64,000 nt of DNA. Origin: Gluconacetobacter dulcium. Lineage in GTDB: Bacteria; Pseudomonadota; Alphaproteobacteria; Acetobacterales; Acetobacteraceae. Below are positions 12,447-41,612 of this stretch, piece by piece; position 1 is the first letter of the stretch, and each line of letters opens with the position of its first letter. The notes beneath the pieces were generated by a model. That model was not told the origin of the DNA. It did not search any database and worked only from the letters and a program-made list of their open reading frames with translations. The stretch covers positions 1-64,000 of the forward strand of contig NZ_JABEQN010000006.1 of the NCBI RefSeq assembly GCF_014174165.1. Reading direction: 5' to 3'. The position numbers and the translations under genes are program-made.

Positions 12447-13573
12447 CATCCGCCGAACTGCCCAGCCTGGGCACAGCCCGCCGCCTCGTCGTCAAGATCG
12501 GCAGCGCGCTGGTGGTGGATTCGCAGAACGCAACCCCGCGCACCGACTGGCTGGACAGCGTGGCGGCCGATGTCGCCGCCCTGCAACGCAGCGGCACCGA
12601 AATCATCCTCGTCTCCTCCGGCGCCATCGCGCTGGCCCGACATAGCCTGGGCATGACCCGCCGCACCCTGCGGCTGGAAGAAAAACAGGCCGCCGCCTCG
12701 GTCGGGCAAATCCGCCTGGCCCAGGCATGGACCGACGCCCTGTCGGCCCACGGGCTGGTCGCGGCGCAATTGCTGCTGACCCCCGGCGACACCGAAGACC
12801 GCCGCCGGTACCTGAACGCCCGCGCCACGCTCGACACCCTGCTGGGGCTGGGTTGCGTCCCCGTGATCAACGAAAACGACGCCATCGCCACCACCGAAAT
12901 CCGCTTCGGCGACAATGACCGCCTGGCGGCACGGGTCGCGGAAATGACGGGCGCCGACCAGCTCGTGCTCCTGTCGGACATCGACGGCCTCTACACCGCA
13001 GATCCCCGGATCGACCCGACCGCCCGCCACCTGCCCGTCATTACCGCGCTGACGGCCGATATCGAGGCCATGGGCGGCGCCCCGCCACCGGGCTATTCCT
13101 CAGGCGGCATGCGCACCAAGCTGATGGCGGCCCGCATCGCCACCCAGGCAGGCTGCGCCATGGCCATCACGCTGGGCAAGGACCCGCACCCGCTGGCGCG
13201 CCTGCGCGACGGCGCGCGCTGCTCGTGGTTCCTGCCCCTCCCCGAGGGGCGCTCGGCCCGCAAACGCTGGATCGCTGGCGGCCTGGCCCCGGCCGGACAG
13301 ATAGCGATCGACGACGGCGCGCGGCGGGCACTGGCGGCAGGCTCATCCCTCCTCCCGGCCGGCGTGCGCACGGTCGAGGGCACGTTCGAACGCGGCGATC
13401 TCGTTCTGGTCACCGACATGGACGGCAACGAGATCGCACGCGGCCTGTCAGCCTACGGCGCCACCGACGCCCGCCAGATCGCCGGCCACCGCTCGGACGA
13501 CATCAAAACCCTGCTAGGCTGGCGCGGACGAGACGAAATGATCCATCGCGACGACCTCGTCTTCACAGCCTGA
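12425..13573 (+). CDS. proB: glutamate 5-kinase
   Basis: 382 residues. It performs the first step of proline synthesis: ATP-dependent phosphorylation of glutamate. The amino-acid-kinase domain ([64 protein letters not shown]) is followed by a C-terminal PUA domain from about residue 285. It overlaps obgE by 22 bases; a GTG at 12443 is an alternative start. proA is not adjacent. The stop codon lies inside the left arm of a repeat element. Confidence 0.95.
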
Positions 13574-13875
13574 GCGGAGATGCGCGCTGGTGGCGATCCG
13601 ACGCGCGTTCCCTCCGCTTCGGTGCTCACGGCCATCAAGGCCGCTCCGCTCCGATGCTCGGAAACACACGACGGCCGTGCCGCTGCGCGCCACTCTCACT
13701 TACCAGCCCACATCTCCGCTCAGGCTCAAATGCGGCAGCACGCGATCCGGCGCGCGTTCCCTCCGTTTCAGGGCTCACGGCCATCAAGACCGCCCCACTC
13801 CGATGCTCGGAAACACACGACGGCCATGCCGCTGCACGCCACTCGCGCTCACCAGCCCACATCTCCGCTCAGGCT
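13567..13875 (+). repeat. 3'-end repeat family, locus A (after proB), two copies
   Basis: The left arm starts at proB codon 381 and stop (AGCCTGAGCGGAGATG, 13567-13582). The same 24-base arm returns in reverse at 13703-13726 and again at 13852-13875, with two mismatches. Between them are two copies, 149 bp apart, of a core with GGCGATCCGACGCGCG, then a small hairpin (CGGCC-ATCAA-GGCCG) and ATGCTCGGAAACACACGACGG. The core points in the proB sense. It also fills the gap to the convergent gene at 13911. Confidence 0.85.
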
Positions 13876-13910
13876 GAATACGACCGCCTACGCTTGAGTT
13901 GTAACCCGGC

Positions 13911-14621
13911 TCAGGTACGCGGCGGCCAGCGCAGAGAGGGTTCGGATCGCGGCCGATCGCTCCAATCGTCCTCACGCGACGCCCGCACCTCACGCCCGGC
14001 GGGCATGCGATAGACCGGCCGCACGGGCACCTCGTCCACGGCTTCGGGCGCGACGGGCGCAACCGGCGGCGGCATCACGGGCGGCCGCGCCGCTTCAGGC
14101 GGCACGTAAGCCGGGTCGCGTGGCGCGGCGGCCGGCCGGTCATGCCAGGGCATGGGCCGCGCAGTATCATGCGAAACCGGCGCACCCGAACGCGGCGCAT
14201 AAGCCGGCGGCTCGACCGGCGGCGCGGCGCGCACGCTGGCCGGGGCGGCAGGCGGCGGGTCGAAATGGGTCGGACGGGGGGGCGAGACCGGGCGCTCAGG
14301 CCGCGCCGCATAGGCGTCGCTGGCCACCACAGGTCCCGGCGCGCGTGCCGGCGGCGGCACCACGGGCTCGACCACCGGCGCCGCAGTGGGCGCGGGGCGT
14401 GGGGCCGCCGGCGAAACCGGCACCCGCTCCTCGGGCCGAACGGCCAGCACCCGCAATTCGGCTTGCAGATCCTCGATCTGCAACGCCAGGGCATCCAGCC
14501 GCCCCTTCACGCCGAATACCGCGAACGGCACCAGCATCCAGAGGAAAATGAACAGCATCCCCAGAATCAGCAGCGCCAGCTGCAACCACCAGGGCATCCA
14601 GTCGGAAAACGGAAACGGCAT
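13911..14621 (-). CDS. unknown single-pass membrane protein with Pro/Ala-rich tail
   Basis: 236 residues starting at MPFPFSDWMPWW. One transmembrane helix (about 12-36, LQLALLILGMLFIFLWMLVPFAVFGV) is followed by a short leucine/acid heptad stretch (RLDALALQIEDLQAELRVL, 40-58). After that come about 170 residues of low-complexity Pro/Ala/Arg sequence ending in DDWSDRPRSEPSLRWPPRT. No known domain is recognised. The layout (N-terminal anchor, coil, long disordered tail) recalls scaffold or division-associated proteins such as ZipA, but there is no sequence support for that. The ATG at 14621 is preferred over 14660 because the membrane helix is then close to the N-terminus. Confidence 0.6.
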   Translation of the reverse strand: MPFPFSDWMPWWLQLALLILGMLFIFLWMLVPFAVFGVKGRLDALALQIEDLQAELRVLAVRPEERVPVSPAAPRPAPTAAPVVEPVVPPPARAPGPVVASDAYAARPERPVSPPRPTHFDPPPAAPASVRAAPPVEPPAYAPRSGAPVSHDTARPMPWHDRPAAAPRDPAYVPPEAARPPVMPPPVAPVAPEAVDEVPVRPVYRMPAGREVRASREDDWSDRPRSEPSLRWPPRT

Positions 14622-14750
14622 CTGCGCACGACCACGGAAAGTACGAACCCCACCGCCCATGTGACCAGATCAGCCACCACCAGCGCAAGGATCGCGTGAA
14701 CGCCTATAACCCCAGAACAACCACGCCTCGGGACCCCGCCCCTGAGACGT

Positions 14751-14914
14751 AAAATCTGCCGTGAAAGCCGGTCTGCCGAGCGAGAGCGCCGCCCGGCGGC
14801 GCGCCCGTCGTGTGTTTCCGAGCATCGGAGCGGAGCGGCCTTGATGGCCGTGAGCACCGAAGCGCAGGAAACGCGCGTCGGATCGCCGGCAGAGCGGCTT
14901 TCACGGCAGATTTT
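14751..14914 (-). repeat. 3'-end repeat family, locus B (after gapR)
   Basis: Directly after the gapR stop (14915-14917), AAAATCTGCCGTGAAAGCC begins an arm that returns inverted at 14751-14777: 19 bases perfect, 28 with one mismatch. Inside is one copy of the core (GGCGATCCGACGCGCG, CGGCCATCAAGGCCG, ATGCTCGGAAACACACGACGG), in the gapR sense. The arm sequence is unrelated to the arms at proB and ftsZ. Confidence 0.85.
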
Positions 14915-40300: not shown

Positions 40301-40312
40301 GGCATCCCCCAT

Positions 40313-40547
40313 CCAGGCCCAAACTTCCGAACCGGCCGGCAATAACTCAAATCCCCCTTCCCGGTTCCCACCACGTCAATTTTGTGACTTTATTTTTTCT
40401 TTTTGTTTCAGCTCGTTAAGCCGTAATAGTCGGCAATAAACAGTGACTCGCACTCCCGCTTTCCTACGATTACAGATCATGCTGTTCATGCTGTCGGTTC
40501 TGTAACAGCCAGGCCAGAAGCAGCGGGAATAACGGCAGGGGACTGGA
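40313..40547 (+). other. lpxC upstream region
   Basis: No gene seen. T-rich run TTTTGTGACTTTATTTTTTC (around 40380-40400) then ordinary sequence with AGGGGA six bases before the lpxC start. The lpxC promoter must be here, since the repeats separate it from ftsZ. Confidence 0.4.
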
Positions 40548-41528
40548 ATGGACGGAATGCTGATGATGTCGGAACAGGAATCGTCACCGATGGGCGAAAC
40601 CGTTTCCGCACGTCCCCTCCCCACCCGCTCCGCCCGCCAGCACACGCTCCGCCAGAGCATTTCCTGCGTCGGCATCGGCCTGCATACTGGCCTGCGGATC
40701 AGGCTGGCCCTCCACCCGGCGGCCGAAAACAGCGGAATCCTCTTCCGCCGCGTCGATCTCGACGGCCGCACCATTCCCGGCCGCTTCGATCATGTCATCG
40801 ACACGCGACTGTCCACCGTCATCGGCGATCCGGCGAACCCCGCCCTGCGCGTCGCCACCATCGAGCACCTGATGGCCGCGTTGTCGGCCACCGGCATCGA
40901 CAATGTGCTGATCGACGTTGACGGGCCGGAACTGCCGGTGCTCGACGGTTCGGCGGCCGATTTCGTCTTCCTGCTCGATTGCGCCGGGCTGGCCGAGCAG
41001 GCCGCCCCCCGCGCGGCGATCGACGTGCTGCGCCCCGTCCGCGTCACCGACGGCGACGCGTTCGCCGAGTTGCGGCCCGCGCGCGAACCCGGACTGGCGC
41101 TGGCCATGTCCATCGCCTTCCCCGCCGCCGCCATCGGCGAACAGAGCTTCACCGCCCGGCTCGACCGCCGGAGCTTCCGCGACGAGATCGCGAATTGCCG
41201 CACGTTCACCCTGCGGCAGGAAATCGAGGCCCTGCACGCGGCCGGCCTGGCGCGCGGCGGCTCGCTGGACAATGCCGTCGTCGTCGATGGCGCCGCGATC
41301 CTCAACCCCTCCGGCCTGCGCCGCCCCGACGAGTTCGTGCGCCACAAGATGGTCGATGCGGTCGGAGACCTCTATCTGGCCGGCGCCACCCTCAACGGCG
41401 TCTTCACCGGGCACAAATCCGGCCACGCGCTGAACAACCGGCTGCTCCGGACCCTGTTCGCCGAGGCCGGCAACTGGCGGTTTCAGACGCGCACGCTCCG
41501 TCCCCAGCCCCTCCGCGCCGCGGCCTGA
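40548..41528 (+). CDS. lpxC: UDP-3-O-acyl-N-acetylglucosamine deacetylase
   Basis: 326 residues; the committed zinc-dependent step of lipid A synthesis. SISCVGIGLHTGLRIRLAL at the start, TIEHLMAALSATGIDN (zinc His107), and RHKMVDAVGDLYLAG (zinc His266 and Asp270), with GHKSGHALNNRLL at the end. It lies after ftsZ, as in many proteobacteria. A repeat-family member follows its stop. Confidence 0.96.
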   Translation: MDGMLMMSEQESSPMGETVSARPLPTRSARQHTLRQSISCVGIGLHTGLRIRLALHPAAENSGILFRRVDLDGRTIPGRFDHVIDTRLSTVIGDPANPALRVATIEHLMAALSATGIDNVLIDVDGPELPVLDGSAADFVFLLDCAGLAEQAAPRAAIDVLRPVRVTDGDAFAELRPAREPGLALAMSIAFPAAAIGEQSFTARLDRRSFRDEIANCRTFTLRQEIEALHAAGLARGGSLDNAVVVDGAAILNPSGLRRPDEFVRHKMVDAVGDLYLAGATLNGVFTGHKSGHALNNRLLRTLFAEAGNWRFQTRTLRPQPLRAAA

Positions 41529-41547
41529 TCCCCCACCCCTGCCGGAC

Positions 41548-41612
41548 AACGCGCGCCGGCGGCGATTCGGCGCGCGTTTTCCATGCCTTCGCGCATGCGG
41601 CCATCACGGTCG
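41548..41612 (+). repeat. 3'-end repeat family, locus D (after lpxC), with terminator-type hairpin
   Basis: Twenty bases after the lpxC stop: AACGCGCGCC (41548-41557), loop GGCGGCGATTC, GGCGCGCGTT (41569-41578), then TT. This is a perfect 10-bp stem with a T tail, likely a terminator. The loop and following ATGCGGCCATCACGG align with the core of loci A-C. The outer inverted arms are not evident here. Confidence 0.7.

Follow-up and report, generated by a model that had tools for sequence, protein, structure and literature searches.

A family of transposon-like palindromes at gene ends in Gluconacetobacter, with arms that diverge between loci and stay paired

The window analysed here, 64,000 nucleotides of contig NZ_JABEQN010000006.1 (C6) from the 4.41 Mb genome of Gluconacetobacter dulcium, carries copies of one palindromic element, or a short form of it, at the ends of proB, gapR, ftsZ and lpxC. 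Its FtsZ shares 97% identity with the protein of Gluconacetobacter liquefaciens, and 81-89% with the FtsZ of the other Gluconacetobacter listed, which places the host close to G. liquefaciens. In the following, this genome is called the host genome, relatives are given as G numbers and loci as L numbers. An nhmmer model built from 78 of 79 copies (one short core was left out) matched nine stretches of the window, all of them oriented with the gene, and together with the reading of the arms and of the open reading frames (ORFs) this gives the following features:

13567..13727, plus strand: complete element closing proB, with arms at 13567-13591 and 13702-13726 and a core at about 13592-13707 (nhmmer 13568-13729)
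13571-13573, plus strand: stop codon TGA of proB, inside the left arm (ORF 12425..13573)
13728..13876, plus strand: second, tandem proB copy, left arm lost and right arm kept (nhmmer)
14750..14914, minus strand: full element directly after the gapR stop codon TAA (nhmmer 14912-14750; gapR ORF 14915..15211, minus strand)
39600..39762, plus strand: full element directly after the ftsZ stop codon (TGA, 39598-39600; nhmmer 39602-39760; arms by eye)
39763..40304, plus strand: four further tandem units of 136 nt after ftsZ (nhmmer 39778-39896, 39914-40032, 40051-40167 and 40186-40304)
41539..41613, plus strand: short solo hairpin after lpxC (weak partial nhmmer match, 28.5 bits)

The inverted arms that had been described at three of these genes are present where claimed, with 25 nt and 92% matching positions at proB, 28 nt and 96% with a single mismatch at gapR (14751-14778 and 14887-14914), and, judged by eye, a pair that starts at 39600 and closes near 39762 at ftsZ. 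Each extra ftsZ unit consists of most of a core and a right arm, with arms that drift from the left arm at which the array begins. Folded as RNA, the proB copy gives a z value of -5.5, and an Rfam scan of the window at gathering score returned ribonuclease P (RNase P) RNA and a transfer RNA (tRNA) only, with no match at the element. The lpxC copy, which had been counted as a degenerate member of the family, has the same loop and sense orientation but is a short solo hairpin and not a full element, with a stem GCGCGCCG/CGGCGCGC, a loop with the GGCGAT motif and a following TTTT; its G006 counterpart has a longer stem with changes on both sides. Further short solo hairpins stand at L047, L050, L057, L059 and L060 of the host genome, and these six share the loop GGCGATC (one each with GGTGATC and GGCGACC) and have paired, locus-specific arms without the middle part of the element. 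They may be a minimal form or a deletion product.

The expectation that the core would turn out to define a general family was confirmed. Two core patterns with up to 3 mismatches hit 57 and 63 sites of the host genome and none when reversed, and from the loci fetched we read 58 distinct full-length copies, 52 of them non-tandem, which fall into a subfamily A with the core GGCGATCC and a subfamily B with the core GGCGTGTCC. All 13 of the 13 searched relatives of the same genus have the element. In the Acetobacteraceae, at least 35 of 200 genomes (the host and three of its genus included) and at least 24 of 102 genera match, a tally that is a lower bound with 4 candidates scored per genome at a threshold of E <= 1e-6. 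Other genera, where arms were judged by eye, have the same core between quite different paired arms, often right after stop codons; among the loci shown, about 7 of 11 in one set and 15 of 20 in another had paired arms. At L086, the pairing extends over 28 bases with the TAG included, and G122 has four copies with four different arm pairs. A third subfamily, C, whose ends resemble GGAGGGTGTTGCAAAAGC / GAGAGTGTTTTAAAAGC, occurs at the L032 locus in G006 and G003 (L191, L172) and near gapR in G003, G005 and G008 (L103, L102, L106), where it has compensated arm differences and sits right after a stop codon or beside an older element. No description of the family was found among the literature titles and abstract openings listed, a search outside of which most subscription journals lie, and in two Gluconacetobacter diazotrophicus genome papers the word 'palindrome' is not used and the few uses of 'repeat' have other senses.

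The original prediction had regarded the arms as unrelated between loci, and this view had to be given up: by eye, most Gluconacetobacter arms align gap-free to one inverted repeat, about AGAGCCTGACCGGAAATG, with which the gapR arm agrees at 19 of 27 positions. The covariation of the pairing that the prediction had suspected is present and strong. Across all 126 non-tandem copies from the host and its relatives, the arms pair at a mean of 14.3 of 16 positions, as compared to 9.6 (standard deviation 2.3) when the partners were swapped and the same offset search was used, and 114 of these copies reach 11 paired arm positions without any pairing filter. When rows with fewer than 11 of 16 paired arm positions were dropped, as was also done for the orthologue count below, the 98 distinct arm pairs had 1459 of 1568 positions in Watson-Crick pairs, against a mean of 921 with permuted right arms, a control that was unfiltered. 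For 24 chosen copies out of the 42 host copies listed, RNAalifold gives a nested fold of 60 pairs, 30 of which have changes on both sides; 97.8% of the cells are paired versus 85.4% after shuffling, and the covariation score is 0.339, compared to 0.102 +- 0.008 for shuffled and at most 0.068 for slid versions. A hairpin of the segments A and A' had also been considered as the conserved fold and was rejected, since the partner with which segment A pairs and co-changes is A''', for example at L004.

The same picture emerges between orthologous copies. The orthologue sample comprises 21 subfamily A loci out of 26 pieces, leaving aside L001, L023, L036, L045, L069, later tandem copies, and copies missed by the first pattern, chiefly of subfamily B. 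In 79 orthologue pairs, which overlap and are not independent, and three of which involve another subfamily, the arms show 130 compensated and 86 single changes as well as 5 two-sided changes of other kinds; the compensated ones are 60 of transition type, 43 of transversion type and 27 flips. Between the host and G006, a hand count with L032 dropped gives 4 compensated and 15 single changes in 18 pairs, and as the single changes outnumber the compensated ones here, mismatches appear to arise first and to be resolved later. At the L013 locus, the host and G006 have GTTCAGGCC/GGCCTGAAC and G008 has GTTTTGGCC/GGCCAAAAC, while G003 combines the left arm GTTTTGGCC of G008 with the right arm GGCCTGAAC of the host. 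To judge from the aligned arms, G003 would thus hold a mismatched intermediate of a change in one or the other direction.

In a stem that is selected at the RNA level, G-U is much more readily tolerated than A-C. In the element, the two corresponding mismatches are about equally frequent, with 157 G.T and 181 A.C over all 60 pairs of 126 distinct copies, 93 and 116 in 108 well-paired copies, and 26 and 25 in the filtered arms alone, whereas RNase P RNA from the same genomes, which served as control with 102 pairs in 11 distinct sequences, shows 70 G.T and 4 A.C, or 37 and 4 at its 15 varying pairs. The copies counted are related to each other, and a small number of columns account for much of the counts, as with 22 A.C at a single pair and 16 G.T at two further ones, yet the contrast remains large. 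Because G.T about equals A.C in the element, unlike in RNase P RNA, the upkeep of the pairing seems to be strand-symmetric, and its mechanism would most likely be template switching during replication. The mismatch spectrum thereby speaks against the long mRNA 3' stem that had been put forward. In 26 sense copies, the fraction of T is 0.81 at the penultimate and 0.42 at the final base of the arm, and 0.73, 0.23 and 0.04 after the stem, at a background of 0.17. As T is thus raised at one base after the stem and near background from the second, the full element is not a usual intrinsic terminator, for which a GC-rich stem is immediately followed by a U-tract; the TTTT mentioned above belongs to the short solo form at lpxC.

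The prediction had also placed the family at gene ends in sense orientation, and this placement was clearly recovered. In 30 of the 52 non-tandem host copies, the element starts no more than 2 nt from the end of a coding stop in sense orientation (TGA in 26 cases, TAA in 4), and stop and element start abut exactly in 23 of the 52, while random anchors are within 2 nt in 0.49% of cases; these loci contain 188 CTGAG sites, 39 of which serve as coding stops when the elements' own are included. Subfamily A has 24 of 37 copies in the sense register and 2 in the mirror antisense register, and subfamily B, which is less tied to gene ends, has 6 of 15 and 1, respectively, with the label resting on the GGCGTG motif and the B-like L027 and L062 being included in A here and in the direct-repeat and no-stop counts. 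For subfamily A, the main one, the outcome named beforehand as refuting, copies without arms or lying irrespective of gene ends and strand, was not observed. Since TGA and TAA are TNA targets as well as stop codons, insertions directly after a stop can be tolerated. In the proB and L010 copies, the stop lies 8 bases inside the arm. At L010, the host protein ends with RRKA* from AAAGCCTGA where G003, whose site is empty, reads on, and the element therefore supplied this gene end. For proB, the prediction was right in that the last codon and the stop are part of the arm, but they were most likely brought in by the element, as far as the reading of the genomes goes: G008 and G002 keep an end ...LR* with TAG, the host, G003, G005 and G006 have ACA GCC TGA, and G001 and G007 have ACC GCC TGA followed by apparent element remnants. 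The AAAGCCTGATTG arm is shared by two loci, one of them being proB in G008. The insertion would have taken place behind an internal CTGA, in an ancestor shared by the host, G003, G005, G006, G001 and G007, and G006 would later have lost most of the element.

The notion of a mobile element that copies its flank upon insertion was supported in its first part only. In subfamily B, identical TNA trinucleotides (TGA or TCA) are found on both sides of 9 of 15 copies, one copy has TAA/TGA, 5 are without, and none is inverted; in subfamily A, direct repeats flank 5 of 37 copies, again with none inverted. The element is short, dispersed and multi-copy (58 copies), has inverted terminal repeats (arms 14.3/16) and shows the 3-bp TNA direct repeat, all of which are features of a miniature inverted-repeat transposable element (MITE). 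The copies of subfamily B, wherever they stand, differ little in their arms and have near-constant ends, because of which this subfamily is probably young. A possible link to a transposase comes from a G003 copy (L352) that ends with GAGCCTGTTTGGAAAT; the same 16 bases occur in G122 (L348), flanked by TTA and 26 bases before a broken frame, although this match came from a pattern that already fixed most of these bases. A stop-free piece of the L348 frame matches PF13340, 'putative transposase of IS4/5 family', with an E value of 2.3e-12, and the other tested piece (28 aa) matched nothing. L348 itself, at 1501-1866, is an end of an IS4/5-family element whose transposase frame is interrupted by stops, and it lies close to the end of its contig. 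A search with a wider insertion sequence (IS) IS5-like end gave matches in 9 of 10 genomes, with 30 loci out of 43 places listed; the longest inner frames were listed for these, and L348 alone was compared with Pfam. An intact IS5-family partner that matches the element would carry ends GAGCCTGACCG...

Once established, copies are retained for long. By hand count, G006 has the element at 19 of the 21 subfamily A loci of the host (absent at L004, a remnant at L020), and G003 has it at 17, with 2 shortened and 2 absent; two G003 cases and one G006 case have another subfamily or a chimeric arm, and the L030 copy of G006 is without the outer right arm. The cores behave differently from the arms. 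The core of a host copy is closer to a host paralogue than to its orthologue at 18 of 19 loci for G003 and at 7 of 20 for G006, numbers in which the choice of the best of about 50 paralogues inflates the gene-conversion signal. This choice favours the result, but hardly to the observed extent, and it is hard to explain otherwise that the cores of L008 and L013 differ by 0.9% from each other and by 8 and 11% from their G003 orthologues, as both loci are shared with G003 and G006. The cores thus look homogenised between loci, and gene conversion that acts between loci and stops at the arms would explain constant cores together with private arms.

We consider it probable that the family is an IS5/IS1031-type MITE that docks on stop codons and whose arms are maintained at the DNA level. 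According to this model, an almost wholly self-complementary MITE of about 160 bp would have spread in Gluconacetobacter by insertion at TNA, and insertions that lie after a stop, or that supply a new stop from the repeat AGCCTGA, would have been tolerated, with the sense-oriented ones being kept for long. Each long palindrome would then be kept self-complementary as DNA: when one arm mutates, template switching during replication (quasi-palindrome correction) would rewrite the other arm, so that the arm sequence could drift and become private to its locus while the pairing persists, and gene conversion between loci would meanwhile keep the cores alike. A mild benefit at the 3' end, either by shielding of the mRNA end or by a stop to read-through, is our guess for the sense bias of old copies. 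The family would accordingly combine two unusual habits, namely in-register docking on stop codons and a divergence of the arms from locus to locus that leaves their complementarity intact. The more specific claim contained in this model, a self-rewriting mobile palindrome that sits at stop codons throughout a bacterial family, in which DNA copying and not RNA selection re-templates one arm from the other, so that each locus has a private arm pair, and in which cores are exchanged between loci, is one that we put forward tentatively, at somewhat less than even chances.

A selected RNA structure, i.e., a stem in the 3' untranslated region that acts as terminator or as shield against 3' exonucleases and whose pairing is kept by compensatory selection on the mRNA, would readily account for the sense bias and the exact stop placement in subfamily A, for the whole nested fold with its 30 covarying pairs and for the long retention across species. 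We nevertheless regard it as rather unlikely, as G.T and A.C are about equal where RNase P RNA has 70 and 4, as 60 transition-type compensated changes stand against 70 transversions or flips, and as only the first base after the stem is enriched in T. The few subfamily A copies without a detected adjacent stop have paired arms as well (mean 13.0 of 16, n=8), although at least L025 among them does sit at a TAA in a low-scoring frame. Covariation could also be mimicked if whole elements were replaced by gene conversion or re-insertion, and there are loci where arms and core do differ together (L021 and L026 in G003, and L032, which has the third subfamily in G006 and G003), quite apart from the cores, which look exchanged in any case. 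Many orthologues, however, differ by one or two compensated pairs with a similar core (divergence 0.00 for L006/L193 and 0.04 for L021/L195), and without the L032 group there are still 110 compensated, 84 single and 3 other changes in 76 pairs, so that wholesale exchange is an improbable source of the pattern.

Two further explanations would assign the arms to the host. In G007, gapR (L120) has no element and ends in a plain hairpin AAATCCGCC-TTTCGA-GGCGGATTT where the carriers have AAATCTGCC...GGCAGATTT, which would fit an element that entered a native intrinsic terminator at its loop, in the manner reported for IS1272/TnSha1, and arms in other genera can resemble terminators (L317). The G007 hairpin may indeed be a native terminator, but it may as well be left over from slippage or deletion between TT repeats, from which it is equally expected. 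It is moreover the exception among the few empty sites, most of which are without a hairpin that matches the arms (by eye, L010 and L020 in G003, and lpxC in several genomes), and the direct TNA repeats and near-constant ends of subfamily B as well as the alignment of the arms to one repeat consensus make host terminator stems quite improbable. Copying of the left flank in inverted form upon insertion could be suspected from lpxC in G005, where TGA-AACCCTGCCCG without an element is nearly the left arm of the G001 element; this site may be what is left of an element, like L020 in G006. As the left arm of L010 fits the repeat consensus and not the empty G003 site, and as arms are common to different places (AAAGCCTGATTG and subfamily B), the arms appear to be the element's own repeats and not copied flank, and flank copying has hardly any probability left.

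The MITE model with DNA-level arm upkeep has its own difficulties, which weigh against it together with the fixed search pattern behind the 16-base match and the paralogue choice in the core comparison. Selection on a DNA cruciform or on a single-stranded transposition hairpin would give the same strand symmetry as template switching. Compensated changes are not clustered (14 adjacent versus 15.3 expected), rewriting of several bases was seen in single examples only, and a T-C mismatch at arm position 12 persists in 25 of the 98 distinct arm pairs, which is at odds with templating because efficient correction should remove such a mismatch. On the side of mobility, 32 of the 37 subfamily A copies are without a direct repeat, and L348 comes from another genus and has a broken gene. 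The host genome has 11 PF13340 matches, 10 of them above the cut-off, and the exact element end is at none of these 11 loci; loosely similar TNA-flanked ends near L370, L373, L375 and L376 (TTA-GAGACCGATCCGAAA in L373) stem from a 3-mismatch scan without chance control. At 20 places with odd or missing partners in G000 and G003, no autonomous IS was found; these places had ordinary, shortened or truncated elements, one of which lies where its contig ends, and L287 and L289 showed the end alone. An autonomous IS that bears the end of the element was thus not found in these scans of the G000 and G003 sites, L348 and the PF13340 loci of the host.

Two of the PF13340 matches of the host genome belong to a repeated IS in the window itself. 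The two near-identical longer repeats (90-96%), at 5845-6778 and 9113-9991 and about 3.2 kb apart, have inverted ends GTGTCCGTCCAAGATC, both carry the PF13340 domain (the first copy with stops), and they lie near a tRNA-Ser at 10247-10336. At 49325-49562, the window contains four 38-nt direct repeats with a spacing of 66-67 nt (GTTTCGATCCACGCCCCCGCGTGAGGGGCGAC), resembling a short array of clustered regularly interspaced short palindromic repeats (CRISPR), which we take to be similar to type I-C.

Conserved RNAs are commonly considered proven when covariation is seen, and here covariation is very strong with strand-symmetric mismatches, from which the RNA control differs. If our interpretation is true, strong covariation can arise without an RNA function, the ratio of G.T to A.C separates both cases, and the family is a natural set that can be used for measuring template switching in bacteria. 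It would also mean that a TNA-targeting transposon can land precisely at stop codons and even provide the stop itself, as it clearly does at one locus, and that it shapes the 3' ends of genes such as ftsZ and gapR.

Repetitive extragenic palindromic sequences (REPs) near stop codons affect translation. Like REPs and their hairpin-forming doublets (REPINs), the element is a dispersed mobile hairpin between genes, but REPINs have conserved ends and a variable middle, whereas the element has a conserved middle, variable outer arms, another end motif and the TNA repeat. Compensatory changes on both sides are reported to be common in REPIN hairpins (PMC3116915), and because compensatory changes in mobile hairpins are thus already known, the family is not a new category. 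IS1272 and TnSha1 of the IS1182 family likewise lie inside paired arms at gene ends, but there the arms are reported to belong to the target, part of the hairpin is deleted, blunt cuts without duplication are proposed, and a duplication is not reported (PMC4923244); the element has its own arms and direct TNA repeats, and its empty sites, gapR in G007 excepted, are mostly without an arm hairpin, which is not the pattern of a hairpin-targeting IS1182-type element. The element is also similar to the IS1031 subgroup of the IS5 family and its MITEs: this group reportedly shares the preference for TNA and the 3-bp direct repeat, TGA in the reported case, and its inverted repeat starts with GAACCTGT as compared to GAGCCTGT or GAGCCTGA in the element (PMC12016507). 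An IS4/5-family transposase domain adjoins the same 16-base end in G122, a member of the bacterial family. Differences are that the element pairs with itself over nearly its whole 160 bp, that its arms are private to the locus, and that most subfamily A copies stand in sense at stop codons. Rewriting of one arm of an RNA stem from the other by template switching has been proposed for ribosomal RNA, where 78.5% of two-step changes are reported to include G-U or U-G pairs and multi-change patterns are enriched (Monttinen and Loytynoja 2022, PMC8794818). The element differs from this case in having neither a G-U excess nor clustering, and its strand-symmetric covariation is, in our view, the most interesting part of the family.

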